Source of the DNA: Patescibacteria group bacterium
GTDB taxonomy: Bacteria > Patescibacteriota > Microgenomatia > UBA1406 > GWC2-37-13
Assembly (NCBI GenBank): GCA_026416975.1
Contig: JAOAEC010000007.1
Coordinates: 1 to 33,314 of the forward strand
DNA: 33,314 nucleotides
Reading direction: 5' to 3'
In this document: piece after piece, positions 2,554-33,314 of the stretch
Layout: each line of letters starts with the position of its first letter
How positions within the stretch are numbered: position 1 is the stretch's first letter
Program-made: the position numbers and the translations under genes
Notes under the pieces: generated by a model
Told to the model about the DNA's origin: nothing
The model's database searches: none
What the model saw: only the letters and a program-made list of their open reading frames with translations

Positions 2554-2589
2554 AAATAATTTAAAAATTAAAAATTTTTAATTTTATTT

Positions 2590-3609: not shown

Positions 3610-3612
3610 TTT

Positions 3613-4770
3613 ATGATTGCTGTTGTTGGTTATTACTCAACCAAATTTGGTGAACTTTGGGAGCGATCACTTTTTGATTTAACCAAAGAGGCAGTTAATG
3701 AGGTTTTAAAACAAACTGCTTTAGAGATTAAAGAAATTGATGCTATTTTTTTTGCCAATATGTTGGCTGGTGTTTTGGAAAACAATCTTCACTCAAGCGC
3801 AAAACTGGCGGAGATTTTTAATATTAATATTCCTATTTTTAGAGTTGAGGCAGCTTGCGCTTCAGGCGGAATGGCAGTATTTTTAGCTAATCAATATTTA
3901 AAAGCCAATACCAATAAAACTGTGCTTGTGGTTGGTGCCGAAAAAATGACTGATTTTTCCCCGGAGCAGGTAACCTATGGCTTATCAGCGGCTGCCTCTT
4001 CTCAAGAACAAGAGGCTGGTTTAACTTTTCCGGGTCTTTATGCTTTAATGGCCAATTTTTATCTTCATAAATATCACTATAATGAAGAAAATTTAGCCTA
4101 CGTTTCGGTAAAAAATCATTTTCATGGTAGTTTAAATTCAAAGGCTCATTTTAGAAAAAAAATTATTGTTGATAATGTATTGGAAAGTCCTTATGTGGCT
4201 TATCCTTTAAAAGTTCTTGATTCCTCACCTATTTCAGATGGTGCTGCTGCTTTAGTATTAACCAATGATAAAGAAAAAATAAAAAAAATTAAAAATAAAG
4301 CAATTCTTCTTTCTTGTAATCTTGCTACCGATAGTATCTCTTTAGCTAAACGAAAAAACCTTGATGAAATTTTAGCCACCAAAATTGCTGCAGAAAAAGC
4401 TTTTAAAGAAGCAAAAATTAAACCATCAGAAATTCAAGTGGCTGAAGTTCATGATTGTTTTTCAATTGCCGAAATTTTAGCCATGGAAGATTTAGGTTTC
4501 TGGGAAAAAGGAGAAGGTGGAAAATTAATCACCCAGTTTCCTACAATGATTGATAAAGGTGATCGGCTAATTGTTAATACCTCAGGTGGATTAAAAGCTT
4601 CCGGTCATCCAGTGGGAGCAACTGGTGTTAAACAAGTGGGAGAAATTTTCTTGCAGTTAACTAATCAAGCAGAAAAGCGGCAAGTAAAAAATGTTAAATA
4701 CGGCTTAACCCATAATGTTGGCGGCTCAGGCGGAACAGCGGTAGTATCAATATTAGCAGTTAGTAGCTAG
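3613..4770 (+). CDS. Acetyl-CoA C-acetyltransferase, archaeal-type thiolase
   Basis: Makes acetoacetyl-CoA from two acetyl-CoA and feeds the HMG-CoA synthase encoded just upstream. 385 aa, thiolase fold. The nucleophile is Cys82 (EAACASGGMAV), His332 lies in GHPVGATG, and there is a C-terminal HNVGGSGGTAVV in which the usual bacterial CxG cysteine is replaced by His367-Asn, as is typical of the archaeal/SCP2-like thiolase group. The start at ATG 3613 lies 3 nt after the synthase stop. No organelle or export signal, so cytosolic. A degradative thiolase role is unlikely given the surrounding pathway genes. Confidence 0.93.
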   Translation: MIAVVGYYSTKFGELWERSLFDLTKEAVNEVLKQTALEIKEIDAIFFANMLAGVLENNLHSSAKLAEIFNINIPIFRVEAACASGGMAVFLANQYLKANTNKTVLVVGAEKMTDFSPEQVTYGLSAAASSQEQEAGLTFPGLYALMANFYLHKYHYNEENLAYVSVKNHFHGSLNSKAHFRKKIIVDNVLESPYVAYPLKVLDSSPISDGAAALVLTNDKEKIKKIKNKAILLSCNLATDSISLAKRKNLDEILATKIAAEKAFKEAKIKPSEIQVAEVHDCFSIAEILAMEDLGFWEKGEGGKLITQFPTMIDKGDRLIVNTSGGLKASGHPVGATGVKQVGEIFLQLTNQAEKRQVKNVKYGLTHNVGGSGGTAVVSILAVSS

Positions 4771-5061
4771 TAGATAGTAGTTAGCATTTAGGAAAAAAAA
4801 TTAAGTTATGAGTTAGGAGTTAAGAGGGATAATAAGTTTTCATTTTTTTTAATGTTTAATAGTTTAATATTTAAAAATTGTTTAAGATTTAAGATTTTTT
4901 TAGAATTTAGATTTTAGGATTTAAAGTTTTTAAATATTTTAGGATTTAAGTTATATTTTTGAGTTTTGGAAATTGAGTTTTGACATTTTTAATGTTTGTT
5001 TAGGATTTTTTAATATTATATATTTCACGTTTAACGTTAGAAGTTAGATGTTTGTTGTATT
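4771..5061. repeat. AT-rich spacer with short direct repeats
   Basis: Between thiolase and the DUF35-like gene. It begins with gttagtagctagtagatagtagttagc and runs into tttaggattt/agatttaag words; attttaggatttaa occurs twice (4911-4924 and 4936-4949). No gene or clear promoter is visible. It belongs to the same class of low-complexity repeat that appears inside genes elsewhere in the window. Confidence 0.5.
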
Positions 5062-5370
5062 ATGCTTTCCCCGGTTAAGATTTGGCGACGACAAAAAGAA
5101 ATTAGAAAAATTTTAGGTAAAGAAGGAATCATTATCTCTTGGACAAAAATTTATGTTGCCACTGATGAGTTTAAAAAACAAGCACCCTATTTTATTGTTT
5201 TGATAGAATTAGAGGATAAAAAAAGAGTCATTGGTCAGTTGGTTGATTTTGATAAAGAGAAATTAAACTTTGGTTTAAAAGTAAAAGCGGTTTTGAGAAG
5301 AATAAAAGAAATTAAAGAAGAAGACATAATTCCTTATGGAGTGAAGTTTAAGTTAGTAGATGAAAATTGA
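5062..5370 (+). CDS. DUF35-like OB-fold protein without zinc ribbon
   Basis: In archaea a DUF35 protein bridges thiolase and HMG-CoA synthase. This 102-aa protein follows those two genes and matches the DUF35 plan: an N-terminal helix with an SPVKIWRRQKE-like motif, then an OB-fold core with WTKIYVATDEFKKQAPY, the strand FIVLIELEDKKRVIGQLVD, and KVKAVLRRIKE followed by IPYGVKFKLV. The usual rubredoxin-like zinc ribbon (two CxxC pairs) between helix and OB-fold is missing: the protein has no cysteine at all. ATG 5062 is the first in-frame start after the repeat-rich spacer. A bridging role is inferred from position and fold. Certain on family resemblance, less on function. Confidence 0.8.
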   Translation: MLSPVKIWRRQKEIRKILGKEGIIISWTKIYVATDEFKKQAPYFIVLIELEDKKRVIGQLVDFDKEKLNFGLKVKAVLRRIKEIKEEDIIPYGVKFKLVDEN

Positions 5371-5521
5371 AAAAATTCAAAATGACAAAGAAAAATTAAA
5401 AAAATATAGCCAGTATTTAGTAGTTAGAATTGAGAATATAAAAGAGTTTTTTTATTTTTTAAATATTATATGTTATTCATTCTATGGTATGCGTCTCATA
5501 TTTTTAGGTTTAGATGGGTGA
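5360..5521 (+). CDS. Possible small ORF (53 aa) overlapping the DUF35-like gene
   Basis: ATG 5360 overlaps the end of the preceding gene by 11 nt in another frame, and the frame stays open to TGA 5519-5521, 22 nt before mevalonate kinase. The product starts with a charged helix (MKIEKIQNDKEKLKKYSQYL) and ends with a hydrophobic stretch (FFYFLNIICYSFYGMRLIF). It fills most of the spacer and could couple translation across it, but may be a chance frame. Function unknown. Confidence 0.22.
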   Translation: MKIEKIQNDKEKLKKYSQYLVVRIENIKEFFYFLNIICYSFYGMRLIFLGLDG

Positions 5522-5543
5522 CGTTTATTAATTTTTAATTATT

Positions 5544-6497
5544 ATGGACGATAAAAATATTTGTTTTAGTACATCAGCAAAGGTAATTTTATCAGGAGAA
5601 CATGCTGTTGTTTATGGTAGACCGGCTTTAGTTTCAGCGATTAATTTAAGATTTAATTTCACTGTCACCGCGTTTATTCGAGAAGGTAAGGATAGTTTCT
5701 TTGATAAAAATATTTTATTTATTGCTCATAAAGTTAAGCAATATTTAAGAGATAAAAAAATAAACTTTACTGATAAACAATTTAATTTTAAGATTAATTC
5801 AGAAATTCCCATCGGTCAAGGATTAGGCTCATCAGCTGCTTTATCGGTAGCAGCGGTGGCAGCGCTTTTAAGATTTTATACGGGAAAGGATTTTGATAAA
5901 GAAATAGTAAATAACTTAGCTTACCAGATTGAAAAATATTTTCACAAAAATCCATCAGGCGTTGATAATACCGCTGTTTGTTTTGGTGGTTTAATTTATT
6001 ATCGAAAAGAGTTTGAGTTTTTAAAAAATATCTCTTTTTTAAACTTTAAAATTCCTAAAAAAATAGAAGAAAATCTATTTTTAATTGATTCAGGAAAACC
6101 AAAAGAATCAACGGCTCAAATGGTTGAGATGGTTAAAATAATGTATAATAAAAAGCCATTATATGTGGAGTCTCTATTAAACAATATTGAAAAAAATACT
6201 AAAAAAATGACCCTATCAATAGTTAAAGGAGATATTAATCTTTTTCGAGAGTCTCTTTTAGATAATGAAATCTGTTTGGAATTACTGGGAGTTGTTTCCA
6301 ATAAAGCAAAAAAGATATTAAAAAATCTCAGTCAATATGGTGTAGGAAAAATTACTGGTGCTGGCGGAAGAACACATGGCGCTGGTTTTATCTTATTTTT
6401 TGCCGATGATAAACTGAAGCTTGAGAATTATTTAAAAGAACAGAGGATTAATTTTTTTAAATTTTTTTCTGATTATGAAGGTTTAAAAAAATTATGA
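5544..6497 (+). CDS. mvk: Mevalonate kinase (GHMP family)
   Basis: Phosphorylates mevalonate to mevalonate 5-phosphate with ATP. 317 aa, cytosolic. GHMP motifs: the N-terminal SAKVILSGEHAVVYGRPAL with Lys13 and Glu19; the phosphate-binding loop IPIGQGLGSSAALSVA (88-103); and PSGVDNTA with the catalytic-base Asp141. The C-terminal GHMP motif, normally TGAGGGGC, reads ITGAGGRTHGAGF (about 270-282), a departure from the glycine run. Its ATGA overlaps the next gene (6494-6497), so the two are probably translationally coupled. The N-terminal sequence separates it from phosphomevalonate kinase and homoserine kinase. Confidence 0.9.
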   Translation: MDDKNICFSTSAKVILSGEHAVVYGRPALVSAINLRFNFTVTAFIREGKDSFFDKNILFIAHKVKQYLRDKKINFTDKQFNFKINSEIPIGQGLGSSAALSVAAVAALLRFYTGKDFDKEIVNNLAYQIEKYFHKNPSGVDNTAVCFGGLIYYRKEFEFLKNISFLNFKIPKKIEENLFLIDSGKPKESTAQMVEMVKIMYNKKPLYVESLLNNIEKNTKKMTLSIVKGDINLFRESLLDNEICLELLGVVSNKAKKILKNLSQYGVGKITGAGGRTHGAGFILFFADDKLKLENYLKEQRINFFKFFSDYEGLKKL

Positions 6498-7504
6498 TAA
6501 AAAAAATTAAAGTAAAAAGCCCAGCCAATATTGCTTTTATTAAATACTGGGGACAGAAGGATAATCAGCTTATTATTCCTTATAATGATAGTTTTTCAAT
6601 GAATCTTTCCGCCTGTTTAACCTATTTAGAAGGAGAAATTCTTGAGAATAAAGAGATTAAAGAAGTTTTTATTAAAGATTATAAAAAAGAAAACTTTTTA
6701 AAAGCTAATACAGAGATTTTAAACAAAATAATTTCTTTTTATTCAACGGCAAAAAAATTTTTAAATTCAAAAAAAGACTTTGGTTTTAGGATTTATTCAA
6801 AAAATACTTTTCCTAAAAAATCGGGAATTGCCGGATCAGCCTCTTTTTTTTCTGCTTTAGCTCTTTTTTTTGCCACTGCTTTTGAAAAAAAACTTAATCA
6901 AAAACAACTTTCTATTTTAGCTCGTCTTTCTGGTTCAGGTTCTGCTTGTCGTTCTATTCCCGATGGTTTTTCTTGGTGGAGAAAGGGTAATAATAACGAA
7001 ACTTCATACGCTTATTCATTAGCACCACCTAATTTTTGGGATCTGCGAGATTTGGTTTTGATAGTTAATCCTCAAGAGAAAAAGGTTGGTTCTTATGAAG
7101 GTCATCAACAAGCAACAACGAGTTTTTTTTTTAAATTTCGATTAAAAGAACTTAAAAAAAGATTAATAATGATTAAAAAAGCATTTTTTAAAAAAGATTT
7201 TTCTTTATTTGGCCAGTTATTAGAAGAGGATGCCTTATCAATGCATATCGTAATGATGACACAAAGGCCACCATTGTATTATTGGAGCGAGAAGACTTTT
7301 TCACTAATAAAAAAAATTGTTGAGTTAAGAAAAAGTGGTAAAATGGAGGGATATTACACAATTGATGCTGGTGAAAATATTCATTTAATTTGTCAGAAAA
7401 ATGATTATCAGCAATTTATCGACTATTTTAAAGAACAACCAGAGATTTTAAAAATTATTGACAATCAGCCATCAACAGGAGCAAAGATAATAGAAATTAT
7501 ATGA
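6494..7504 (+). CDS. Mevalonate (di)phosphate decarboxylase
   Basis: ATP-dependent decarboxylase of the GHMP superfamily. 336 aa with the MDD signatures: ANIAFIKYWGQKD (11-23), SGIAGSASFFSALA (110-123), ARLSGSGSACRSIPDG (143-158), and TIDAGENIHL with the catalytic Asp291. The substrate cannot be read from these motifs. Because no phosphomevalonate kinase gene is present and isopentenyl phosphate kinase follows directly, it may act on mevalonate 5-phosphate and release isopentenyl phosphate, as described for Roseiflexus and haloarchaea. Classical MDD acting on the diphosphate remains possible if the kinase lies elsewhere. It overlaps its neighbours by ATGA on both sides (6494-6497 and 7501-7504), pointing to one tightly coupled transcript. 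The retained Asp argues against mevalonate-3-kinase. Confidence 0.88.
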   Translation: MIKKIKVKSPANIAFIKYWGQKDNQLIIPYNDSFSMNLSACLTYLEGEILENKEIKEVFIKDYKKENFLKANTEILNKIISFYSTAKKFLNSKKDFGFRIYSKNTFPKKSGIAGSASFFSALALFFATAFEKKLNQKQLSILARLSGSGSACRSIPDGFSWWRKGNNNETSYAYSLAPPNFWDLRDLVLIVNPQEKKVGSYEGHQQATTSFFFKFRLKELKKRLIMIKKAFFKKDFSLFGQLLEEDALSMHIVMMTQRPPLYYWSEKTFSLIKKIVELRKSGKMEGYYTIDAGENIHLICQKNDYQQFIDYFKEQPEILKIIDNQPSTGAKIIEII

Positions 7505-8307
7505 AAGAAATAGTTTTAATAAAGTTAGGGGGGAGTTTAATTACTGATAAAGAAAAACCATTTGTCGCCAAAAAAGGAGTTATTGATAATTTAGCTTGTC
7601 AAATAGCAGAAGCTTTAAAAGAAAATCCGGAGATAAACTTGATTATTGGCAATGGCGGTGGTTCTTTCCCTCATTATCCAGCAGTAAGGTATGAGATGAG
7701 TTTAGGGATAAGAAATGAAAAGCAGAAATATGGTTTTTGTTTAGTGCAAGATGCCGCTTCTCAACTAAATAGAATCGTAGTTTCCTCATTGTTAAAATAT
7801 CAAGTCAAAGCCTTTTCAATTCATCCATCATCAATTATTTTGTCAAAAAAAGGACAGATTAGAAAAATTTTTCTTGAGTCGTTATTAGGTTTATTAAAGT
7901 TAAAAATTACACCGGTGGTTTATGGGGATATTGTTTATGATGAGGTTTGTGGATCAACGATTTTTTCAACAGAAAGACTATTAGTTGAGTTAGCTAAAAA
8001 ATTAAAAGATAAAGGATTTATTATTAAAAGAATTATTCACAATGGAATTACCAAGGGAGTTTTAAATGATAAAAACCAAACAATTCCCTTAATTAATAAA
8101 GAGAATTTTTCTCAGATCAAAGACTTTATTTTCAAAACTCAAGGTTTTGATGTTACCGGCGGAATGCTTCATAAAATTAAAGAGTCATTAAACTTAGCGA
8201 AAAAAATGGCAATCAGAACCATAATTATTAACGGCGTCAGTCAAAAAAATCTTTTAAAAGAGGCAATTTTAGGAAAAAAAGTGAGAGGAACAGTAATAGA
8301 AGGTTAA
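7501..8307 (+). CDS. ipk: Isopentenyl phosphate kinase (amino-acid kinase fold)
   Basis: Converts isopentenyl phosphate to IPP with ATP. 268 aa of the amino-acid kinase fold. Motifs: N-terminal LIKLGGSLITDKEKP (6-20), GNGGGSFPHYPA (50-61) with His58 at the place of the catalytic His that marks IPKs against glutamate or UMP kinases, a VVYGD strand-turn (139-143), and FDVTGGM (216-222) near the ATP site. It starts inside the stop of the decarboxylase gene and ends with its stop codon overlapping that of the convergent pilin gene (8304-8307). Together with the kinase and decarboxylase it can make IPP without phosphomevalonate kinase. Fosfomycin-resistance kinase (FomA) is a relative but unlikely in this context. 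Confidence 0.9.
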   Translation: MKEIVLIKLGGSLITDKEKPFVAKKGVIDNLACQIAEALKENPEINLIIGNGGGSFPHYPAVRYEMSLGIRNEKQKYGFCLVQDAASQLNRIVVSSLLKYQVKAFSIHPSSIILSKKGQIRKIFLESLLGLLKLKITPVVYGDIVYDEVCGSTIFSTERLLVELAKKLKDKGFIIKRIIHNGITKGVLNDKNQTIPLINKENFSQIKDFIFKTQGFDVTGGMLHKIKESLNLAKKMAIRTIIINGVSQKNLLKEAILGKKVRGTVIEG

Positions 8308-21611: not shown

Positions 21612-21830
21612 ATGAAGGGTAACTTCTTTTATCAGAGATTAGGAAAAAAAATTCATTTTGAAAGAATTAAAAGAAAACTTTCTCAGGAGCAGTTAGCTTT
21701 TTTATCAGACACTGATAGAACATATATTGTCAGAATTGAGAATGGTAAAGCTAATCCAACTGTAAAAGCTTTATACAAAATTGCGAGAGCATTGCACATA
21801 AAAATAAGTCAACTTCTAATAGGGGTTTGA
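21612..21830 (+). CDS. XRE-family transcriptional regulator (72 aa)
   Basis: A stand-alone helix-turn-helix protein of the Cro/CI type: GKKIHFERIKRKLSQEQLAF as helices 1-2, then SDTDRTYIVRIENGKANPTVKALYKIARAL with the recognition helix, the usual IENG and P-x-v-ka-L-k-IA-aL motif, and a short end. The frame extends upstream through a hydrophobic non-homologous stretch to a TTG at 21540, but ATG 21612 gives a protein that begins with the domain. It probably regulates itself or the following large gene, which starts 56 nt later from its own -10 box. No toxin partner is visible. Confidence 0.85.
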   Translation: MKGNFFYQRLGKKIHFERIKRKLSQEQLAFLSDTDRTYIVRIENGKANPTVKALYKIARALHIKISQLLIGV

Positions 21831-21874
21831 GTTTCAGTTTTAATTTATTAATTTCATTATTTTTTAAAATTAGA

Positions 21875-21880
21875 TATAAT
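21875..21880 (+). promoter_or_regulatory. -10 box 6 nt before the large gene's ATG
   Basis: Perfect TATAAT followed by tttttt and the ATG at 21887, the same geometry as the other leaderless promoters. The -35 region (tttcat, 21852-21857) is weak. Confidence 0.45.
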
Positions 21881-21886
21881 TTTTTT

Positions 21887-24646
21887 ATGAACACACCGGA
21901 TAATTCGCCTAGTAGAGGGACAGATGAGATTACTCAATTAATTGAGGAGGCAAAGGAGTCAGTTAAAAGAGAGGTAGAGGCGGCTAATTCTGTGTCAGCC
22001 AAAAAAGAGTTAGCAGAAGAACTTCGTGATGAATTAAAAAGAATAAGAATTTCTGTGGAAGAAGTACTTCGTGAACAAGAACAGATCCAAAAAGGTCGGC
22101 GATTGGTGATAACAAAAAGTGAGGAAGCAAAAAAAAATTTACGGACACTAATAAGAGCGGTAGAGGCAGCTAAAAGAGGAGTGATTGTAGGCAAAACCAA
22201 TGAAGCTCAGGTAATTTTAATTAAATTAGCAGAAATTGATTTAACGCCTTCTACCGCTTCAGCATTAGAATATTATCTTACTGATTATTTAGTTGGTAAT
22301 AAAAGAATTTTAGTTGAGAGCGCTTCTGATTCAAAATCAGAGTTCGAAAGAGATTTTGAAAATCTAGCAAAAACTAATTTTATAGCAGCACAAGAGATTA
22401 TTAAATTACTAGAAGAAGCAGTTAATAAGGGAAAAATTACTTCATTAACAAAGGAAAAAATAGAGAAATTAAAGAGCTATTTAGAGCAAGTAATTCAGAA
22501 TGAAAAAAAGGAAGAAAGAGAAAGAGAGGCAAGAATTCCCACAAAGGAAGAAGTGGAAAGTTTTATAAAACTTTGGCGACGCGTAAATGAAAAAATTGGC
22601 GAAAAAGTTAAAACAGGTGAATTATCGAAGGAAAAACTTGAAGAGTATAATCGCTTAATTTTTAATAAAGAAGAGGTTGATGTAGAAAAAGCTTTTCGAG
22701 AATTAGGTTTTACTGACGCGGAAGCAAAAGAGTTTTCAAGATTAAGGCCAGTTTATCATGGAGAATTAAACACTCATTTTATGGAACAACACCTTCCTCG
22801 TTTAGCTGGTGAGGTTCATGCAGTTCAAGAAGAATTAGGTGCTTTTTTTCAGCAACTAATGAAAAGAAATGAAAGAGGTGAGTTAATTATGGAGAAAAAA
22901 GATCGCCAGAGATTAAAAAATATTGTAAGAAAGTATTTATATTATGGCTTAAAAGAGATTCATGAAAACAAATCAACAGACTTTCACCATGCATTGCAAG
23001 AAAGGTCAGATGTAGGATATTATTTTGGTTTAATTCATCAGGTAATTGGTTATCATTGTGAACGAATTGCTGAATTAATTCCGCCAGAAACATCAGAAGG
23101 TAGAGAACTGAGAAAGTTTTTAATTGATTTAGGTGGAAGTTTTATTAGTCGCACCTTAACATTTGCCCAGATCTTTCATAATCTACCTTTATATGTAAGA
23201 GATATTGGTAGTATTGAGAATATCTCAAAAATGTTTGCTTATATTTATCCAAGCCAATTAGCAGAACTTTTTGATGATGAGACAGCTTTTATGATGGTAG
23301 CAAGGGATGAATTAACAATGTTAATACGAGAGTATTTGGTTAGTAATGATAATATCTATGGTGGTGATTTTCTATCAGGGAAATATAGAGAGGAAGGTTG
23401 TTATTGGAACCCAGTATTTAGAGATAATTTTATTGATCGGTTAAGAGAAAAATTAAAAAGGTTGGGAATTGGTTTAAGTGAGGAAGATGAGTGGAAAATG
23501 TCTATGTTTTCCACTTATGCTGAAGGGATTGGTATTGCTACCCTAACTGATGGAGAGATTTTAGCCACTTCAAGACCAGTTGGACATATTCGTGATGTTC
23601 ATCCTTTAATGCAGCTTTTATCAGCTAAATTTAATTGGTTAGGCGGTCGTGGAGAAAGAGATGTTGGTCATTTAATCAACAGATTTTTATTAGGAATGGA
23701 TGTTGAGCTTTTAACTCATGAAAGGCCTCTTTTAGCCAGATTAATTAAAAAGAAAAAGTTTATTCCTGATAAGATTGCTGATTTAACCGAAAGGAGAATT
23801 GATGAATATGGAGGTAAGATGATTGAGGGGATGGTTGATGCATCTGGCGGAGATTTTCTGTTTGATATGGGTGGTCTTTACCAAGAGTTGATCTCAATGT
23901 TTACGGTGCCGGGAGCTTTAGATAGTTGGCATGGTTGGCGGGTACAGGGAGTAACTCTAGAGTTGAATAAGATATTTTCTTTAATATTTGATAAAAAGTT
24001 AGATGATGCATGGAAAAGTTGGAATGATAGTGATTGGCGAGATTTTTTTGATTTATCATTGGAACTTTATGGAACAACTTCAATATGGTGGCAGATAGGT
24101 ATTGGTGGAACTGGAAATAGGGTTTCTCATGAGATAAAAAGGCTTTTTTTAGATCTTTGCGGAGGAGATATTAATAAGGTTGGACCGATGTATAATCAGC
24201 TGTCAGGCGATAGCGCTTTAGCTCCAGTTATTGATTTTCAGATTGACGACCCAAAATATAAAGGAAGAAAAATAAGCTTTTTAGAGTTGCGTCATCATAA
24301 AATGAATCAGCTAAGAGGCGAGGTTTTTTTTAGATTTTTACGAAGAAATCCAGGCGAGTTTTTAGCTCTTTTATCTCAGTTGGTGCCGGAGATTTTAAAG
24401 GATGATACCTTAATTTTTAAATCAGAAGCGGAAATAAGGAAAGTTTCAAAAGATGAAAAAAAAACAGAAAATGAGATTAATCAAGAATTAGCTAAGCGAG
24501 CTGCTTTAGAAAGACGTTGGGGAAAGGAGTTGTTTGAACTTTTTGGCAATCTTCATCAATGGTTAGGAGAGAAAACGATTAAATTTAATAATCCAACTAC
24601 AGGTAAACCTTTTACCTCAAGAGAAAATGTTATTCTTATTTTTTAG
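21887..24646 (+). CDS. Very large unknown protein, 5' part (919 aa), frameshifted
   Basis: ATG 21887, with a TATAAT 6 nt upstream, is the likely start; the open frame also reaches a TTG at 21827 but that adds only a hydrophobic non-homologous stretch. The first 230 residues are charged and coiled-coil-like (EEAKESVKREVEAAN, RDELKRIRISVEEVLREQEQ). A larger globular, mostly helical part follows, with Trp/His-rich stretches such as GALDSWHGWRVQGV and SIWWQIGIGGTGN. No signal peptide or membrane segment in this half. The frame ends at TAG 24644-24646 in a T6 run; the -1 frame continues without interruption into the next entry. I recognise no family. It precedes genes of a pilus/secretion type, which suggests an envelope-associated or cytoplasmic partner role. 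Confidence 0.75.
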   Translation: MNTPDNSPSRGTDEITQLIEEAKESVKREVEAANSVSAKKELAEELRDELKRIRISVEEVLREQEQIQKGRRLVITKSEEAKKNLRTLIRAVEAAKRGVIVGKTNEAQVILIKLAEIDLTPSTASALEYYLTDYLVGNKRILVESASDSKSEFERDFENLAKTNFIAAQEIIKLLEEAVNKGKITSLTKEKIEKLKSYLEQVIQNEKKEEREREARIPTKEEVESFIKLWRRVNEKIGEKVKTGELSKEKLEEYNRLIFNKEEVDVEKAFRELGFTDAEAKEFSRLRPVYHGELNTHFMEQHLPRLAGEVHAVQEELGAFFQQLMKRNERGELIMEKKDRQRLKNIVRKYLYYGLKEIHENKSTDFHHALQERSDVGYYFGLIHQVIGYHCERIAELIPPETSEGRELRKFLIDLGGSFISRTLTFAQIFHNLPLYVRDIGSIENISKMFAYIYPSQLAELFDDETAFMMVARDELTMLIREYLVSNDNIYGGDFLSGKYREEGCYWNPVFRDNFIDRLREKLKRLGIGLSEEDEWKMSMFSTYAEGIGIATLTDGEILATSRPVGHIRDVHPLMQLLSAKFNWLGGRGERDVGHLINRFLLGMDVELLTHERPLLARLIKKKKFIPDKIADLTERRIDEYGGKMIEGMVDASGGDFLFDMGGLYQELISMFTVPGALDSWHGWRVQGVTLELNKIFSLIFDKKLDDAWKSWNDSDWRDFFDLSLELYGTTSIWWQIGIGGTGNRVSHEIKRLFLDLCGGDINKVGPMYNQLSGDSALAPVIDFQIDDPKYKGRKISFLELRHHKMNQLRGEVFFRFLRRNPGEFLALLSQLVPEILKDDTLIFKSEAEIRKVSKDEKKTENEINQELAKRAALERRWGKELFELFGNLHQWLGEKTIKFNNPTTGKPFTSRENVILIF
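24639..24646 (+). other. Frameshift site: T6 run before a stop
   Basis: Six T (24639-24644) then AG. In the upstream frame it reads ATT TTT TAG. A -1 shift, or one more T, gives ATT TTT TTA GAG and opens the frame for 332 further codons. It could be a real inactivating indel, a homopolymer error in the assembly, or slippage. Confidence 0.7.
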
Positions 24647-25641
24647 AGAGAACTTCGGATGCTTTAGAGCGATTAAAAATTAGAAATGAACCTTTAAGAA
24701 GAGAGATTATTAAAATTGCTAGTGATCCTAAATTAACCAGTGAGGAAAAAAAAGCAAGAATTACTACTATAAGAAAAAAAATGCTTTATTTAAGAAAAGA
24801 AGATTTTAGTGAAGATACAGCTTTGTGGGATATTTTTGCCGGTAAAGGTGGATTTTTTGAGATCTTAACAAAAACCGAATATGAGAATGCTGATAATTTT
24901 TATACTCAATTAGGAGCTTATAATAAAGCAGCTAGTACGGGGAATCTTTTTTTTAAGATGGCTGAGGTTTGGTATCTTCGCAATGACGACCTAAATCCTT
25001 TTCCTTCAGATATAGCTTATTATGATATTTTTAAACACATTCCTTTCTCTGGAGAAAATGCTTTAAAGAGACTAATTGATGCTGATTGGGCAACTTATAA
25101 AGATGTAGTCACCCAGGTACCACAATTAGAAAAAATTCTTCTTAAGGCGGCTAATACTGGTGATTTTAAAGAGATATATGAACTTCATCAAAAGATATTT
25201 AATACTTTAAGTGGCTTGGTAGGGACGGAACATGCTTATAAAGCCAATTACATTCTTTCTCAGATTGTCATTCAGTTTTTTATGGAACATAGCGTTTTAC
25301 GAGATCCGATATATAACTATTTGGCTCCGGTTAACTTTGTAATGAGAGCTTTAATTGGCAAAAATCGTTCTCTTTCCCGACTATTAACAGGTAATATTCA
25401 TGCTTATTCAATGGATGCGAACGCAATTAGAGACTATTTGATTAAGTTGGGGACTGAGATGCATGTGATTAATCAAAAAGGAATTTATTCGGCTGAACAG
25501 TTAGAAAAGGTTTTTGAGGTGACAAAAGGCGAGTTTATTTTAGGCGATGTGGCGCCAAAATTAGCTTGGTTTATTATTATTTTCCTTATGTGGACCTATA
25601 TTAAAAAGGCATTAGAAGAAGCTGAAGGAAAGAAAAAATAA
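24643..25641 (+). CDS. Very large unknown protein, 3' part (332 aa after shift)
   Basis: The reading frame is open upstream of its first ATG (24781) back past 24643, and the residues encoded there (LERTSDALERLKIRNEPLRR) look like ordinary protein, so this is the continuation of the 919-aa part and not an independent gene. The restored protein would be about 1250 aa. It is helical, with a region of aromatic residues (LWDIFAGKGGFFEILTK) and a single membrane segment near the end (LAWFIIIFLMWTYI), followed by a Lys/Glu tail (KKALEEAEGKKK). A C-terminal tail anchor with a large cytoplasmic body is the simplest topology. Family unknown. If translated separately it would start at ATG 24781 (286 aa). 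Confidence 0.65.
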   Translation, partial: LERTSDALERLKIRNEPLRREIIKIASDPKLTSEEKKARITTIRKKMLYLRKEDFSEDTALWDIFAGKGGFFEILTKTEYENADNFYTQLGAYNKAASTGNLFFKMAEVWYLRNDDLNPFPSDIAYYDIFKHIPFSGENALKRLIDADWATYKDVVTQVPQLEKILLKAANTGDFKEIYELHQKIFNTLSGLVGTEHAYKANYILSQIVIQFFMEHSVLRDPIYNYLAPVNFVMRALIGKNRSLSRLLTGNIHAYSMDANAIRDYLIKLGTEMHVINQKGIYSAEQLEKVFEVTKGEFILGDVAPKLAWFIIIFLMWTYIKKALEEAEGKKK

Positions 25642-25680: not shown

Positions 25681-26562
25681 ATGAGTAAAAAATTTTTAAT
25701 TAAATACTTAACAATAATCGTTCTTTTAATTTTTCTTTTTATTAATAATTCTTTTTATGTTTTAGCTCAAACAACACCTACATGGATACCAGTACCAACA
25801 CCAACCTATGCTCTTTTTCAAGATCAGGGAAATGATTTTAATTATTTAAACCAATATGATGAATGGATTCAAAAACAATTTTTAGAATCTGAATTAAACT
25901 GCGGTAATATTGGTCAGGCGTGTTGTGGAAGAGCATATAGTCCTCAAATTAAATTAATTGATAATTTTTTAAGCTCAATTATTTTTTTCTTACCGGGGAG
26001 TTACGGATTAAGATCGCTTATTTCGCTACTGTTTCCGATTGCTGTTAGCATAATAAGTCCGATAATTGACACAGCCACTAATTTGCCTAATAGAATTTTA
26101 GGTTTTATTGAGGTGGAAACAAGAGGTTATTGCGCCCATGGTTATCCAAGCAATGAGTTTAATATTGATCAGTGTACTTGTGTTTCATCAGATAATTTGG
26201 CTGCCGGCAGGCTTTGCGGAGTTTTGACAAACAACAGCGAAAAAAACAAATGTTTTAATACGTGTATGAAAGATGGTAGTGGAGTTTGGACCGCTTTGGG
26301 TTGTTTTTCTTCGGATTTATCAACCATGATAAAAGAAAAAGTTTTTGGATTGGGAGTAGGATTAGCTGGTTTTATTGCTTTAATGTGTATTATTTATTCG
26401 GCCTTTCAACTTCAAACCTCTCAAGGTTCAACAGAAAAGATCAAAAAAGTCCAGGAGCTTTTGACTTCCTGTATTATGGGACTAATGCTGATTATATTCT
26501 CCGTGTTTATTCTTCGGTTAATTGGCGTAGATATTTTGAAGATACCGGGATTCGGGAAGTAG
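25681..26562 (+). CDS. Secreted Cys-rich protein with C-terminal VirB2-like domain
   Basis: 293 aa. A signal peptide (1-29, cleavage after FYVLA) is followed by a Pro/Thr-rich stretch and an ectodomain with Cys at 74, 81, 82, 151, 165, 167, 179, 191, 195 and 208, a pattern that suggests several disulfides. A hydrophobic stretch lies at about 92-130. The C-terminal 75 residues (two TMs at about 224-246 and 263-283 around QTSQGSTEKIKKVQELL) repeat the plan of the small VirB2/TrbC-like pilins at 8304-8950. So it looks like a pilin domain carrying a large disulfide-rich head, possibly a tip or surface subunit. It lies between the large unknown gene and the VirB6-like gene. Role inferred from domain layout. 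Confidence 0.75.
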   Translation: MSKKFLIKYLTIIVLLIFLFINNSFYVLAQTTPTWIPVPTPTYALFQDQGNDFNYLNQYDEWIQKQFLESELNCGNIGQACCGRAYSPQIKLIDNFLSSIIFFLPGSYGLRSLISLLFPIAVSIISPIIDTATNLPNRILGFIEVETRGYCAHGYPSNEFNIDQCTCVSSDNLAAGRLCGVLTNNSEKNKCFNTCMKDGSGVWTALGCFSSDLSTMIKEKVFGLGVGLAGFIALMCIIYSAFQLQTSQGSTEKIKKVQELLTSCIMGLMLIIFSVFILRLIGVDILKIPGFGK

Positions 26563-26888: not shown

Positions 26889-28568
26889 TTATTTTTGTTT
26901 TATAGGTATTCCTCCCTTCTCAATAAGTTGTTGAAAATATTCTTCAGATAATGGTGTTGGCGTACTTAATCCTAATTTCTTAGCAATTGGCTTTACAATT
27001 TTACCAATTCCAGGAGTTTGCGATAATGAGGTTATTTGACTTATAGCTCCCATACCACCACTGAAAGCAGCTCCGACACCACCAAAAAATGTTCCCAATC
27101 CTAAATTGATTGGTAAACCTTTAGCACCTAAAAGTTCTTTAATTAGTTTTAAAAAGTCAGGAATTAAAAGATAGATTCCCATACCTATTAAAGCAGCAAT
27201 AGATTTACCATCAAGTCCATAGATAAATGGTGGCGCCCAAGTTGGTTGATCAACTGAAAAAGTTCGCATAATAATATCAGAGACAAGAATAAGAGTAATA
27301 ACAACAATAAATCCTAAAAGATTAGCAATAAGATTTTTTAACCAAAAAGAAAAAGTTCCTTTGCCAGGAATCGCTTCAAAAACCAAAAGAAAAGGAGCAA
27401 AAATAATCAAAAGAATAATCTGAAGATAGTTCATAAAAAGAGCGAAAAATACACGAAAAATAAGAAAAAGAACGGTGAAAAAGACAAGAAGAGCTAAAAA
27501 AAAAGGAAAACCGAAAAGAGCAATTGAAATAAAAATAAGAACATCTGCAACTATACCTATTATATTAAGCAATGATCCTAAACTATTACCAAGAACATGA
27601 ACACCATCAAAAAGCTCTGTTAATTGTTTAATAAGGCCCTTTTTGTCTCCACCAAGAAGTTCTTTAAAAATTTTAGTAAAAAATATTCCCGAAGCAATTT
27701 GTAAGGCAATAATCAAAATTGATCTTATTCCTTCAGGCATGATATTAAAAAGCGCCATTCCTACTCCTGCCATATTTTTAAAAAAATGCCTAGGAAAAAT
27801 TTTCCCAAAAGAAGGGTTTAAGTATTGAGAGGCGATTTCAGCTGAAGACTGAGAGAGTTGAGGAGCAAGGATGCTGATAATAACAATAATAATTACATAC
27901 ATAAGATCAATTAAAAATCCGGCGATTGGAAAGGAAAAGGTGATTAGAATTAAAGAAACAACAATTTTTGGAAGGGAGTTTTCAACAGAGATAACAGTTT
28001 GTGGATTGAGTTTTGTCCGAAACATAATCATAAAACCAATAGCGATTAAAACCAAAACTAAAAGCATATAAGAAATATCGCGAAAAACCTTCCAGATATT
28101 CATAAAAGGCTTTATGGCAGCAAAACCAATGCCTTCGGCAGCATAGGTTTTGGGTATAAAACCAGCGTTTTGAAGACCTGAGTAGGCCCAATACATTCCT
28201 GAAGCTGGCAGATTAGTGTATGGAAGAACAATTAGCTTGGTAACAAAACCGAAAACTGAGTGATGAAAATTTTTATCGCCGTCTGATGGGTTGTCAGTGC
28301 AAGCTTCACCAATAAAACTACAGTACATTAGCCGATATAAAGCAATAAAAATTTTTCCCTGTTTAGTTTTTTTAAGTTGAGGATTATTGATTGTTTGATA
28401 TATCTCTTGCCGATTTTTTTCTATCAAATTTCCTGTGTGTTTTGGTCTGTCTTTGTTGATAAAGTGAAGAAAAAGACTGATAACAAAAAAATAAACCGCT
28501 AAAATCAAAAACGCCTTTTTTAAAAAACCAAAGATCTTTTTAAATCCCAAAAGATAAAAAGAAGCCAT
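26889..28568 (-). CDS. Polytopic membrane protein, VirB6/TrbL-like
   Basis: 559 aa, starting at ATG 28568; a TTG eight codons upstream is less likely because it overlaps the -10 box. One N-terminal TM (about 12-32) is followed by an extracytoplasmic-type region with two Cys (CSFIGEACTDNPSDGD), then roughly eight hydrophobic segments with loops such as FRTKLNPQTVISVENSLPKIVVSLIL and a FKELLGGDKKGLIKQLTELF loop. The C-terminal tail is Gly-rich (GTFFGGVGAAFSGGMGA), then hydrophilic. This layout matches the VirB6/TrbL-like inner-membrane channel proteins of type IV secretion systems that CPR genomes encode beside VirB2-like pilins. Similarity is by topology and context; no alignment was possible. 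Confidence 0.6.
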   Translation of the reverse strand: MASFYLLGFKKIFGFLKKAFLILAVYFFVISLFLHFINKDRPKHTGNLIEKNRQEIYQTINNPQLKKTKQGKIFIALYRLMYCSFIGEACTDNPSDGDKNFHHSVFGFVTKLIVLPYTNLPASGMYWAYSGLQNAGFIPKTYAAEGIGFAAIKPFMNIWKVFRDISYMLLVLVLIAIGFMIMFRTKLNPQTVISVENSLPKIVVSLILITFSFPIAGFLIDLMYVIIIVIISILAPQLSQSSAEIASQYLNPSFGKIFPRHFFKNMAGVGMALFNIMPEGIRSILIIALQIASGIFFTKIFKELLGGDKKGLIKQLTELFDGVHVLGNSLGSLLNIIGIVADVLIFISIALFGFPFFLALLVFFTVLFLIFRVFFALFMNYLQIILLIIFAPFLLVFEAIPGKGTFSFWLKNLIANLLGFIVVITLILVSDIIMRTFSVDQPTWAPPFIYGLDGKSIAALIGMGIYLLIPDFLKLIKELLGAKGLPINLGLGTFFGGVGAAFSGGMGAISQITSLSQTPGIGKIVKPIAKKLGLSTPTPLSEEYFQQLIEKGGIPIKQK

Positions 28569-28574
28569 AGTTTC

Positions 28575-28603
28575 ATTAAAGCAAAAAAACAAAAAACAGT
28601 CAA
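28575..28603 (-). promoter_or_regulatory. Promoter of the VirB6-like gene, leaderless geometry
   Basis: On the - strand: TTGACT (28598-28603), 17-nt spacer, TTTAAT (28575-28580), then 6 nt to ATG 28568. Same geometry as at 8957-8985, 25646-25674 and 31193-31221. Confidence 0.55.
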
Positions 28604-28678: not shown

Positions 28679-29896
28679 ATGGAAAAAAATTTAAATAAAA
28701 TTGTTGCTATTTTTTTAGTCATTATAATTATTATTTTATTTTTTTTATATTTTCTTTTGTCAAAATTAGGAAAGAGATTATCACCGATTAATCAAAAGAG
28801 AATTTCTCCTACAAAAATAGTTGGTTTTTATAAACAGGAAGGAAATACAAAAAAAATTGAAGAAAAGAACAATGAAATAATTACCAGCACTTTTGCTGGT
28901 GAAGATGGTTTTGGCGAAGATTTTATTGCGGTTTATAATATAAGAAACAATGAGCTGAAAAAAAAATTGCCTTTAAAAACAGATTTTTTTGAGATTTTTT
29001 ATAATGAAGAAACAGGAAAATTTTTTGTTAATTTGAACTTGAATGTTTCCAATTCTTATAACCAATTTCTAAAGTGGTTAGCAATAAATGGTTTCAATTC
29101 TGATGATTTTATAATTAATCAAACAACAATTACTTTACAACCAACAATTTCCATTGTTAATCAAAATCAATTAAATTCTTTTTCTATGGTTGATAATATA
29201 TTGCTTCCTTTTTTGAGAGTTTTATCTAATCTATCTCAAGATAATTTTTCTTCTGCAACAACATCCTATAATTTGTTTGAGAATTATAATTTCATTTCTC
29301 CAATGCCTATTTCTTCAACATCAGATATTTCATCTAATAATAATTTTACTCCTTCTAATTATAATCCTAACCGACGTGGTTGTTATACTCCAGAAAGATT
29401 CATTGAGGTTTATGCTGATGGTTTAACTCCTAATGGTCCGCCGAACTGTTATGCTAATGTTAAGACAAGGGTTGAATCCTATCTTGTAAGGATTCCATTT
29501 TTAGGATTAGCCAATATTCCAGTTCATAAAAAAACCGCCTCTTTTTTTAAAGCAGTAGATGAGGAATTAGCGCCTTATAAAGTTAGCGGTAGTACTTATC
29601 GTTTTCAACAAGGAAATTATACTTTTAAATTTTCCGGCACTTATGTTTTTCGTTGTAATGTTAATGCTAGTGGCAATATTGACCGGTTTGATCTTTGTAA
29701 TTCTTCTTGTGTTTTATCGCCACACTCTTTTGGTTTTGCTATTGATTTAAATGCTGATACCAATAGAAATAAAAGTTCCACCTATGATATGCCGCCAGAA
29801 GCAGTGGCTGCTTTTAGGAAGTATGGTTTTCGTTGGGGAGGAGAATGGAATGACGCGATGCATTTTGAATACTTAGGAGAGATCTGCCCTCCTTAA
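28679..29896 (+). CDS. Membrane-anchored M15-type peptidase (D-Ala/L-Ala type)
   Basis: 405 aa. An N-terminal TM anchor (about 9-29) is followed by a domain (about 95-180) that resembles one in the convergent gene, a Ser/Asn-rich linker, and a C-terminal M15 (VanY/LAS) metallopeptidase domain. Zinc ligands: His349 and Asp356 (SPHSFGFAIDLN), and His395 in the MHFE motif; the catalytic Glu comes from this late region too. The GFRWGGEW...DAMHFE stretch is diagnostic. Such enzymes cleave peptidoglycan cross-link peptides. It probably opens the wall locally for the adjacent secretion/pilus-like apparatus. The start at ATG 28679 is preceded by TATAAT 28645-28650 and a TATAAA 3 nt upstream. Confidence 0.85.
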   Translation: MEKNLNKIVAIFLVIIIIILFFLYFLLSKLGKRLSPINQKRISPTKIVGFYKQEGNTKKIEEKNNEIITSTFAGEDGFGEDFIAVYNIRNNELKKKLPLKTDFFEIFYNEETGKFFVNLNLNVSNSYNQFLKWLAINGFNSDDFIINQTTITLQPTISIVNQNQLNSFSMVDNILLPFLRVLSNLSQDNFSSATTSYNLFENYNFISPMPISSTSDISSNNNFTPSNYNPNRRGCYTPERFIEVYADGLTPNGPPNCYANVKTRVESYLVRIPFLGLANIPVHKKTASFFKAVDEELAPYKVSGSTYRFQQGNYTFKFSGTYVFRCNVNASGNIDRFDLCNSSCVLSPHSFGFAIDLNADTNRNKSSTYDMPPEAVAAFRKYGFRWGGEWNDAMHFEYLGEICPP

Positions 29897-29900
29897 GATT

Positions 29901-31187
29901 TTATTGGTTTTGATAATAATCCCAAACATATTGACAATAACTGCGATTACCAAGCCGGGAAAAACGATTAAAACAGGCGCTGCGACCATTATAACGAGTA
30001 ATTGCTCGATAAACCTCTTCTTGTGTCCAGAAAAAAGGATTGGCGGCCCGGGCGCCGGTTTTAAGAAGAAAAGCAGCAGCATAAATACTATCTTTAATAT
30101 TACAAGGATCAGGGGTGTGAGAATAGTCGCCATAAATATTGATTGCCTGACCATAACTTGCCCAAGCGTTGGGACAATAACCAGGAGCGCAACCAGGACA
30201 ATTGTTTGTTCCAAACCGATCAACACCGGTGGTAAACTGCATTGGTCCTTTTTCCGAACAAGTATTAATAAAACAATTAGGAATGCTATTACCTGGTTGG
30301 CTATATAAAGAGATTTCTTCATTAGAATAATTAAAAGTAGAAGGAGACTCAACCTTCATTACTGCTTCTAAAATTTTTGGTGGGACACCAACTTTTGAAC
30401 CAGCCTCTTGAAATAATTTAGAAAGGCTAAGAGAGATTAAAGGAGACGATGGTAGCGGTGAAATAGGAGGAGTTAATGATTGATTGGGAAGATTAGGAGA
30501 ATTGTTTAATGGTTCATTAGCAGTTTGGTTATTTGATTGAGTGGTAGATAAAGAGGTAAGAATTCTTAAAAAATCAATTAACAAAGAAAAATTATTTTGA
30601 GGATTAGCTATGAATGTTGGATTAACCGAAGGAGAAGTAGTAATTTCTCTTGCTTGAATTGAGGTTTGAAGATGTTGGGAATACGAGTTTTCTTTAAAAT
30701 CTTTGTATTCTGAAGCGTTTCTTTCATCTGGCTGATTGTTTACAAAAGGAGTAAAAATGACTAAATTATTATAAGAAAGAAGATTTTCTAAACCTTGTTC
30801 CTTTAACCAAAGAATAGCTTTTTCTTTTCCATCTTTGTTTTTGGGAGAAACAAACAAAGTATTTAAATAAGAAGAGTAATCAATAGAAAAATCAGTGTTT
30901 TCTATTGGTAGTTGATTTTGGAGATTATTTAATTTTTCTGTTTCCTGAAAAGAAAGGGTTTTATAACTTATATTTGTTTTTATTGACGAATCAGTGGAAT
31001 TAGAGCTTGATAAAGAATTTGTTTTAGCCTCTTTTTGCAAATCAAGTTTTTCCGGAAGTTTATTTTTTGTTAAAGATAATTTTTGGTAAACAACAGATTT
31101 TTTTTTAAAGTCTAATTTTTTAAGCAAAAAATTTAATAAGATTAAAATAAAAAAAATGATGGTGAGAACAACAATTATTTTTTTCAT
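29901..31187 (-). CDS. Membrane-anchored lytic-transglycosylase-like protein
   Basis: 428 aa. N-terminal TM (KKIIVVLTIIFFILILLNFLL), a domain with paralogy to the convergent M15 gene (about 90-160), a long Ser/Asn/Pro-rich linker, and a C-terminal SLT/lysozyme-like domain: AGSKVGVPPKILEAVMKVES with catalytic Glu near 280, GPMQFT (314-319) and AITRYNG (395-401). Extra Cys residues (CFINTC, NNCPGCAPGYC) suggest disulfides or metal binding. It cleaves the glycan strands of peptidoglycan. VirB1-like enzymes of this kind accompany type IV secretion systems, matching the VirB6-like neighbour. ATG 31187 is chosen over TTG 31202 because it gives a clean Lys-Lys-TM start. Confidence 0.82.
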   Translation of the reverse strand: MKKIIVVLTIIFFILILLNFLLKKLDFKKKSVVYQKLSLTKNKLPEKLDLQKEAKTNSLSSSNSTDSSIKTNISYKTLSFQETEKLNNLQNQLPIENTDFSIDYSSYLNTLFVSPKNKDGKEKAILWLKEQGLENLLSYNNLVIFTPFVNNQPDERNASEYKDFKENSYSQHLQTSIQAREITTSPSVNPTFIANPQNNFSLLIDFLRILTSLSTTQSNNQTANEPLNNSPNLPNQSLTPPISPLPSSPLISLSLSKLFQEAGSKVGVPPKILEAVMKVESPSTFNYSNEEISLYSQPGNSIPNCFINTCSEKGPMQFTTGVDRFGTNNCPGCAPGYCPNAWASYGQAINIYGDYSHTPDPCNIKDSIYAAAFLLKTGARAANPFFWTQEEVYRAITRYNGRSACFNRFSRLGNRSYCQYVWDYYQNQ

Positions 31188-31192
31188 TTTAG

Positions 31193-31221
31193 TTGACAAC
31201 AATTAATTTTTTATTCATAAT
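31193..31221 (+). promoter_or_regulatory. Promoter of the clp gene, leaderless geometry
   Basis: Perfect TTGACA (31193-31198), 17-nt spacer, CATAAT (31216-31221), then aaatct and ATG 31228. It lies in the 40-bp gap to the divergent transglycosylase gene, whose start is at 31187. Confidence 0.6.
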
Positions 31222-31227
31222 AAATCT

Positions 31228-33314
31228 ATGACCGGTTTCTTTGATTTTATAAAAAAAGGGAGGGGGAACGCAAATCAAAATCAAACAGGTGTTTCTTTAT
31301 CTTCTCAATCGTTTCAAAATCCATATCAAGCACAGAATATAGATCAAAATCAACAATCAACAAGAAAAGTAAGCTATTCGGGCATAGGACCAAATCCAGG
31401 CGATGGTCAACCATATTTAAGAATTATTGAGCCATCAAAAAACAATAATAATAAAAAACCAGCATCTTTTTCTACCCAATCTAATCAAGTTTTAAATAAT
31501 TTAAGTGGTCAAAAAACCGCTTTTTTATCAACAAGTTCAGCAAAAACAAACAATGATAAAAAAAGCGATTTGGATCTGATGACTCATCTTACTCAACGAG
31601 CTAATAGAATATTTCTTTCTTCTCAGACAAAAGCTAAGGAGTTATCAGCAAATTTTGTTGATAGCGAGCATCTTTTACATGGTCTTTTGTCTGATAACGA
31701 GATTTATAATCTTTTGATTGATCTAAAAATTCAACCACAGCTAATTGAAGAAGAGCTAAACAAAATTTATAAAAAAGAGAATAATCAAGGAATACCCCAA
31801 CTTTCTCCCCGAGTAAAAAAAATTTTAAATGATTCCTTAGTGATTGCCAGGAAATTAGGTTTTGAGTTTATTTCGCCGGAACACATTCTTTTAGCCTTGT
31901 ATGAAGAAGGAGAGGGGGTTGGTGCTAGAATCTTGGCTAAGTTGGGTTTAAAAAAAGAAGAGCTTAATAAAAAAATTCTTGGAAAAAAAGAAGGATTGGA
32001 TGAAGGAAAGAAAAAATTAGAAAAAAAGAAAAGTGTTTTGGAAGAGTTTACCATTGATTTAACGGTTAAGGCGGCGCAAGGTCTTTTGGATCCAGTAGTG
32101 GAAAGGTCAGAGGTGATTGAAAGAGTGATCCATATTTTATCTCGTCGAACAAAAAATAATCCGGCTTTAGTCGGCGAAGCTGGTGTTGGAAAAACCGCTA
32201 TTGTTGAGGGCTTGGCGCAAAAAATCGTTGCCAAGCAGGTACCAGAACCGCTTTTAAACAAAAAACTGCTTCAATTAGATTTAATGAATATTTTAGCTGG
32301 CGCTTCTCATCGAGGCGAGTTTGAGGAAAGAATGAAGAATTTAATTGAAGAAGTAAAAGAGAGCCAAAATCAAATAATTCTTTTTATTGACGAAATTCAT
32401 AACATTGTTGGCGCTGGTTCCTCGGGTGAGGGAAGTTTAGACGCTTCTAATTTTTTAAAACCAGCTTTAGCCAGAGGTGAGATTCAGTTAATCGGCGCGA
32501 CAACTTTAACTGAGTATCGAAAATATATTGAGAAAGATCCAGCACTTGAGCGACGATTTCAATCAGTATTAGTGCCAGAACCAACTGAGGAACAGGCGAT
32601 TAAAATGTTAAAAGCGACAAGAGACAAATACGAAGTATTTCATCGGGTGAAAATTCCTGATGAGGCGATTGAGGCGGCGGTTAAATTTTCTAAACGTTAT
32701 ATAGGTGATAGATTTTTGCCAGACAAGGCAGTTGATTTGATTGATGAGGCAGCTTCAGCTGTTCGTTTACCTTTAATTTCTTTACCAGAAGAGATTACCT
32801 CTTTACAAACAAGAATAAGTGAGTTAAATCAAGAATTAAAAGAAACTGAGAAAAAAGGCGATGGGGTTAGGGCAAGAATTTTAAGATCAAAATTAGATGA
32901 TTTAACCTCGGTTTTAAAAGAAAAACAAGAAGAATATAATCTGAAAAAATCGCAAACAACTACTGCAGTGACCATTGAAATAATTAAAGACATTGTTTCT
33001 CGCTGGACGGGGATTCCTGTTTCTAAAATTACCTCCTCTGAATTAGAAAGATTGGCTAATTTGGAAAAAATTATGCATGAGCGATTAATTAATCAAGAAA
33101 CAGCTGTTTCGGCAGTGGCGCAGGCAGTTAGACGCGGTCGTGCTGGTTTAAAATCACAAACAAGACCGATTGGTAGTTTTGTTTTTTTAGGACCAACCGG
33201 TGTGGGAAAAACCGAGTTGGCAAAAACCTTAGCTGATGTTTTATTTGGTCAAGAAGAGGCAATGATTAGGTTTGATATGACTGAGTATATGGAAAAACAT
33301 GAAGTGGCTAAGCT
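31228..33314 (+). CDS. clpC: ClpC/ClpB-type AAA+ unfoldase, N-terminal 695 residues
   Basis: Runs off the window end without a stop. About 110 residues of an Asn/Gln/Ser-rich low-complexity extension come first, then a Clp N-domain (DLMTHLTQRANRIFLSSQ..., SPEHILLALYEEG). The first AAA+ domain has Walker A GEAGVGKTAIVEG (catalytic Lys322) and Walker B ILFIDEIHNIVGAG. A short middle region of roughly ClpC size (coiled-coil SLQTRISELNQELKETEKKGD) follows, then the second Walker A GPTGVGKTEL (Lys661). It unfolds proteins for ClpP or remodels aggregates. The short middle domain favours ClpC over ClpB; the missing C-terminus prevents a check of the ClpP-binding loop. Its own promoter precedes it. 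Confidence 0.88.
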   Translation, partial: MTGFFDFIKKGRGNANQNQTGVSLSSQSFQNPYQAQNIDQNQQSTRKVSYSGIGPNPGDGQPYLRIIEPSKNNNNKKPASFSTQSNQVLNNLSGQKTAFLSTSSAKTNNDKKSDLDLMTHLTQRANRIFLSSQTKAKELSANFVDSEHLLHGLLSDNEIYNLLIDLKIQPQLIEEELNKIYKKENNQGIPQLSPRVKKILNDSLVIARKLGFEFISPEHILLALYEEGEGVGARILAKLGLKKEELNKKILGKKEGLDEGKKKLEKKKSVLEEFTIDLTVKAAQGLLDPVVERSEVIERVIHILSRRTKNNPALVGEAGVGKTAIVEGLAQKIVAKQVPEPLLNKKLLQLDLMNILAGASHRGEFEERMKNLIEEVKESQNQIILFIDEIHNIVGAGSSGEGSLDASNFLKPALARGEIQLIGATTLTEYRKYIEKDPALERRFQSVLVPEPTEEQAIKMLKATRDKYEVFHRVKIPDEAIEAAVKFSKRYIGDRFLPDKAVDLIDEAASAVRLPLISLPEEITSLQTRISELNQELKETEKKGDGVRARILRSKLDDLTSVLKEKQEEYNLKKSQTTTAVTIEIIKDIVSRWTGIPVSKITSSELERLANLEKIMHERLINQETAVSAVAQAVRRGRAGLKSQTRPIGSFVFLGPTGVGKTELAKTLADVLFGQEEAMIRFDMTEYMEKHEVAK

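Follow-up and report, generated by a model that had tools for sequence, protein, structure and literature searches.

Here, we report that two neighboring genes for cell-wall enzymes in a patescibacterial genome, a peptidase (P0001) and a putative transglycosylase (P0002), carry the same small domain, which recurs in related genomes on unrelated wall hydrolases and as a free membrane protein beside type IV secretion system (T4SS) genes. From these sequence relationships we consider it probable that this module is a T4SS-associated anchor drawing interchangeable wall hydrolases to the secretion channel, in a VirB1-like role. Patescibacteria are thought to depend on T4SS for life on host cells.

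The window analyzed is a 33,314-nucleotide stretch of a genome of 671,785 bases across 43 contigs, and the relatives used for comparison are mainly Roizmanbacteria and other Microgenomates. Apart from the genes discussed below, the window holds a forward-strand cluster (1429–8307) of what we take from sequence to be mevalonate-pathway-like genes (HMG-CoA reductase, HMG-CoA synthase, thiolase, kinases and a decarboxylase), in a very small genome.

A domain shared by two convergent genes

P0001 (28679–29896, forward strand) encodes a 405-aa protein in which an N-terminal transmembrane helix (aa 7–30; 28697–28768, forward) is followed by the module, a linker and an M15 peptidase domain. The Pfam profile Peptidase_M15_4 recognizes this last domain (E = 1.9e-14; 54.4 bits vs. 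a cut-off of 25), and alignment to 2vo9 identifies H349, D356 and H395 as the zinc ligands (HxxxxxxD + H). P0002 (29901–31187, reverse strand, with a TTG at 31202 as a possible alternative start) encodes 428 aa in the same order, with a transmembrane helix (aa 3–25; 31113–31181, reverse), the module, a linker and a divergent SLT-like transglycosylase domain. The stop codons lie four bases apart, and the convergent pair of membrane-anchored proteins given in a preliminary description of this DNA is confirmed by the open reading frames and their orientation.

Pfam SLT profiles do not match the catalytic domain of P0002 above cut-off (SLT_2, E = 0.084), find only two of ten homologous catalytic domains (best E = 8.8e-5) and return nothing from the source genome, and PDB sequence searches with P0002 or its catalytic profile gave no match. 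The SLT motifs are present, with the Glu in MKVES (aa 277–281), GPMQ (314–317) and YNGR (399–402), and their columns are near-invariant among relatives, one of which has Asp for Glu.

The module spans aa 91–148 of P0001 (28949–29122, forward) and aa 87–147 of P0002 (30747–30929, reverse). As BLASTP between the two proteins returned no match (E above 3) and direct Smith-Waterman alignment of the regions was marginal (p = 0.045), the pair alone could not settle whether they match. We searched 116 related genomes with both proteins, and the ORFs of the resulting loci with their N-terminal parts, and found that these parts match the same third proteins in related loci. In our strictest test, profiles were built from phmmer matches of relatives, excluding the window proteins and all transmembrane helices, with 3000 shuffles as the null. 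The HMM from relatives of P0002 matched P0001 aa 90–135 with 19.8 bits, where the best shuffle reached 10.3; the reciprocal HMM matched P0002 with 19.0 bits (best shuffle, 10.5), and one more HMM round gave 29.4 and 38.5 bits for the two directions. An HMM of 39 enzyme-borne modules matches P0001 aa 90–153 (E = 4.8e-6), and hhalign of enzyme-type against free-type module profiles gave a probability of 98.3 (E = 2e-14). P0001 and P0002 carry the same small domain: the similar region before the linker that the preliminary description had pointed to in both proteins is borne out by the helix-free profiles and by hhalign, and the profile alignment it named as a check proved significant.

Separate AlphaFold2 models, whose input alignments partly overlap so that they are not fully independent, predict alpha-beta-beta-alpha-beta for the module of P0001 (mean pLDDT 88) and alpha-beta-beta-alpha-(alpha)-beta for that of P0002 (mean pLDDT 87). 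The predicted secondary structures coincide in the order helix, strand, strand, helix, strand, and the two predicted folds agree in the structural comparison that the preliminary description had proposed. The family has no match in Pfam, NCBIfam or PDB sequences, and Pfam and NCBIfam run against 52 module sequences gave only single-member chance matches. A PDB fold search with both models yielded no match below E = 0.1; the best neighbor, the alpha-lytic protease pro region (E = 0.15, TM 0.58), is not significant, and neither are EscJ (E = 0.44) or PrgH and YscD (E = 1.1), all at TM about 0.4. We rejected a match of the FtsH extracellular domain (PF06480) to P0001 aa 11–97 (E = 0.0056; 17.3 bits vs. 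a cut-off of 25.5) because it spans the transmembrane helix and linker, outside the module. A literature search over a limited set of papers found no existing description, and the module is best read as an undescribed, predicted extracytoplasmic domain of ~60 residues.

Each module had also been said to be followed by another LLxFLRxLxxLS-like stretch, which finds support in P0002 but not in P0001. An EM motif search on trimmed linkers uncovered a short hydrophobic helix with the approximate consensus DFLNIFLNL that recurs in related enzymes with or without the module (score 543 vs. 358 ± 9 in shuffled linkers). The stretch SLLIDFLRILTSLS of P0002 (30546–30587, reverse) fits this motif, which is common to many related enzymes (p = 0.001), and NILLPFLRVLSNLS of P0001 (29195–29236, forward) does not (p = 0.79); compared directly, the two linkers show no significant similarity (p = 0.07).

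Fusion partners, free forms and history of the module

Among Roizmanbacteria relatives, the module sits behind a transmembrane helix and linker on C39, SLT, M23, NlpC/P60 and CHAP enzymes. Pfam confirms fusions with C39_2, M23, NLPC_P60, CHAP and Big_5 domains, and with M15 in P0001; the SLT-like fusions are identified through homologous domains. Single proteins can combine the module with both SLT and C39 (L112/L089) or carry it in tandem copies (L144, L154), and it is also joined to Big_5 Ig-like domains in proteins with no hydrolase domain. Its free form is a membrane protein of ~145 aa with one transmembrane helix. The search of other surface proteins suggested beforehand thus revealed the module in six or more catalytic families, as well as in a free membrane protein.

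Free and fused forms complement each other. The free protein adjoins a wall enzyme in islands whose enzyme has no module, and islands with no free protein carry the module on the enzyme, making the module more constant than the enzyme. Many versions of the same wall enzymes occur without it. Nor is the module universal: of 287 genomes sampled throughout the phylum, 9 have a detectable copy. Free single-span proteins in the module slot of three further loci (L118:7139–7573, L150:8297–8791 and L131:8595–9041) have divergent module-like sequence (LPLRTQKYFVYYD..., TPFAAPSFSIATYY...) below the HMM threshold, and the family is therefore probably wider than counted. In another locus (L096:9522–11219 and L096:11188–12036), an M14 zinc carboxypeptidase is joined to a C39-like domain, and the adjacent Big_5 protein has a variant of the module.

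The two modules of the window appear to have different histories. As the full-length M15 orthologues examined in relatives have no module and a different N-terminus, P0001 looks like a lineage-specific fusion. Its nearest module relatives are free module proteins, with which it groups in the tree (97/81) on a long branch; it occupies the slot of the free protein beside the VirB6-like gene, inverted; and the source genome (in a 78% complete assembly) yielded no free module copy and no further clear copy of any kind. The simplest reading of P0001 is that an M15 peptidase became joined to the free module protein within this lineage. The module of P0002 groups with enzyme modules of locus L155 (96/88), and P0002 joins an enzyme-type module to a divergent transglycosylase. 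The AU test does not reject a tree that unites both modules (p = 0.20).

Linkage to type IV secretion genes

Next to P0001, the window encodes a VirB6-like polytopic membrane protein (567 aa; 26889–28592, reverse), a conserved neighbor of module genes, and a T4SS-pilin-like fusion protein (293 aa; 25681–26562, forward; Pfam T4SS_pilin E = 0.002, below cut-off), which is conserved in the island. Twenty related loci share a gene order that runs through ValS, YidC, Jag, a ~1220-aa membrane protein, the pilin-like and VirB6-like proteins, the free module protein, one or more wall enzymes, ClpC extended at its N-terminus, an M50-like protein, a VirB2-like pilin and RecF, where the housekeeping genes are named by recognition of their sequences.

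Several features of the island are recorded here in their own right. The ~1220-aa membrane protein is split in the window (21827–25641, forward): near 24640 the reading frame changes, by a natural frameshift or an assembly error, leaving ORFs of 939 and 286 aa. The ClpC-like AAA+ protein (31228–33312, forward), conserved beside module genes, has a long extra N-terminus with FFDFIKK...YNGIG repeats, and some relatives have extra inserted stretches in the C-terminal half. Six loci (L091, L093, L094, L098, L099 and L104) encode a small transmembrane protein of 105–135 aa between ClpC and the M50-like gene, conserved in position, with an NYTPLDLxK start and a P/S/T-rich tail.

We measured linkage from both sides. 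With the VirB6-like protein as bait, picked independently of the module, 38 of the 51 loci that offered at least 1.5 kb of upstream sequence had a module within 3 kb upstream of the VirB6-like gene. Near the VirB6-like genes of more distant groups (Gottesmanbacteria and others), the profile used found no module. Most of the Microgenomatia genomes we searched encode the VirB6-like protein, which belongs to no Pfam family. In 12 distant Microgenomatia genomes its gene is no more than 16 kb away from VirB4, a proximity that supports a role in the T4SS. When the search was extended across the class and phylum, using the module profiles by themselves, and the surroundings were read, 9 of 12 distant module-bearing loci had VirB4, PrgI/VirB3, VirB6-like or pilin genes in the sequence retrieved; the other three showed no T4SS genes in theirs. 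In locus L198, PrgI follows immediately downstream of the module gene, and in other Patescibacteria families the module lies within VirB4/PrgI/pilin clusters.

In the source genome VirB4 is present on another contig, and in its family it is located away from the island, so that the case for T4SS membership of the island is made by its VirB6-like and pilin-like genes together with the linkage seen in other families. The wall hydrolases of the window are encoded with these two core genes, as expected of VirB1-like enzymes, with VirB4 elsewhere.

Proposed role, alternatives and known systems

Its presence on many wall cutters, and as a free protein beside T4SS genes, makes it probable that the module directs these enzymes to the secretion channel. 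In the mechanism we propose, the module would be held to the membrane by one transmembrane helix and a linker, facing outward, and would form part of the T4SS in Microgenomates and in some other Patescibacteria. Most relatives encode it as a free protein beside the VirB6-like channel protein, and enzymes of unrelated catalytic families have been fused to it time and again. The module would most likely bind itself or a neighboring channel component, and each fused hydrolase would then open peptidoglycan at the secretion channel only, as VirB1-type enzymes do elsewhere. The preliminary description spoke of a docking or targeting module; that reading is supported, the T4SS linkage gives it a concrete target, and docking itself is what we infer. 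Conceivable, though we would not expect it, is a ring or collar subunit of the patescibacterial T4SS channel in place of the missing VirB8, with hydrolases built into the ring by fusion; wall opening would then be part of the secretion machine itself.

The module could instead be a peptidoglycan-binding domain that targets enzymes to their substrate, its link to secretion merely reflecting the enzymes used there. Such a domain might well sit on many unrelated wall hydrolases, as LysM or SH3b domains do, but it would be expected on wall enzymes beyond these islands as well, and M15 orthologues elsewhere in the genomes of relatives have none. The many free membrane proteins with no enzyme, the Big_5 fusions with no hydrolase domain and the linkage to VirB4, PrgI and VirB6 also make this explanation unlikely. 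We think it improbable that the module is an auto-inhibitory or folding pro-domain of the enzyme that follows, with free copies regulating in trans. The alpha-lytic protease pro region is its top fold neighbor, but at E = 0.15 and TM 0.58 this is no significant fold match, and the module precedes six unrelated catalytic folds, is often missing from the same enzymes and occurs in tandem in L144 and L154; the free copies, hydrolase-less Big_5 fusions and VirB4/PrgI linkage weigh in the same direction.

Two further explanations would deprive the pair of wider meaning. The adjacency of the genes and the joint tree that is not rejected (AU p = 0.20) would suit a recent tandem duplication, but the best tree separates the modules, placing that of P0001 among free proteins (97/81) and that of P0002 beside the enzyme modules of L155 (96/88), their direct similarity is at noise level, and the same two module types recur in dozens of relatives, leaving such a duplication very improbable. 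A chance resemblance of low-complexity N/S/T-rich regions next to a transmembrane helix, consistent with BLASTP E above 3 and pairwise p = 0.045, is refuted by the non-circular, helix-free profile tests that beat 3000 shuffles; hhalign (98.3%) and the shared topology of confident models concur, and we give it practically no credence.

The T4SS-associated anchor that we favor bears on two questions left open in the accessible text of a 2025 survey of patescibacterial T4SS (PMC12102498), namely the whereabouts of VirB8 and which protein plays VirB1. That text reports patescibacterial VirB1 as weakly or rarely linked to VirB4, with other glycosidases as possible substitutes, VirB8 as nearly absent in Patescibacteria and VirB6 as scarce in Microgenomatia, and it contains no description of the module; the VirB6-like family found here is a candidate for this scarce VirB6. 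The module flags T4SS-associated wall hydrolases even where Pfam no longer recognizes their divergent catalytic domains, and points to a free, conserved single-span protein beside the VirB6-like gene; together these are directly testable candidates.

Like VirB8, TcpC and TraM, the free module protein has one transmembrane helix and a small outer domain and adjoins VirB6-like genes. VirB8 is NTF2-like and larger, whereas the module has ~60 residues in an alpha-beta-beta-alpha-beta order with no match to VirB8 structures, and no VirB8 is among the listed PDB fold matches of its models. Helices and strands follow the same order in ring-building motif domains of type III secretion (EscJ, PrgH, YscD), and at E = 0.4–1.1 and TM about 0.4 homology is not established and the likeness is a lead only. 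The catalytic domain and metal ligands of P0001 are those of M15 D-Ala-D-Ala carboxypeptidases and L-Ala-D-Glu peptidases (2vo9), but its N-terminal module is absent from all full-length M15 relatives examined. Another parallel is with VirB1-type hydrolases, including PrgK, TraG(pIP501) and TrsG of monoderms, where T4SS genes are likewise accompanied by SLT, CHAP, M23 and NlpC-type wall enzymes. Monoderm enzymes such as PrgK and TraG combine several catalytic domains, and the island proteins sometimes carry two, as with SLT and C39 in L112/L089. In contrast to VirB1-type hydrolases, the enzymes described here vary in their catalytic domain, often below Pfam cut-offs, and have in common an undescribed membrane-anchored module that occurs as a free protein too.
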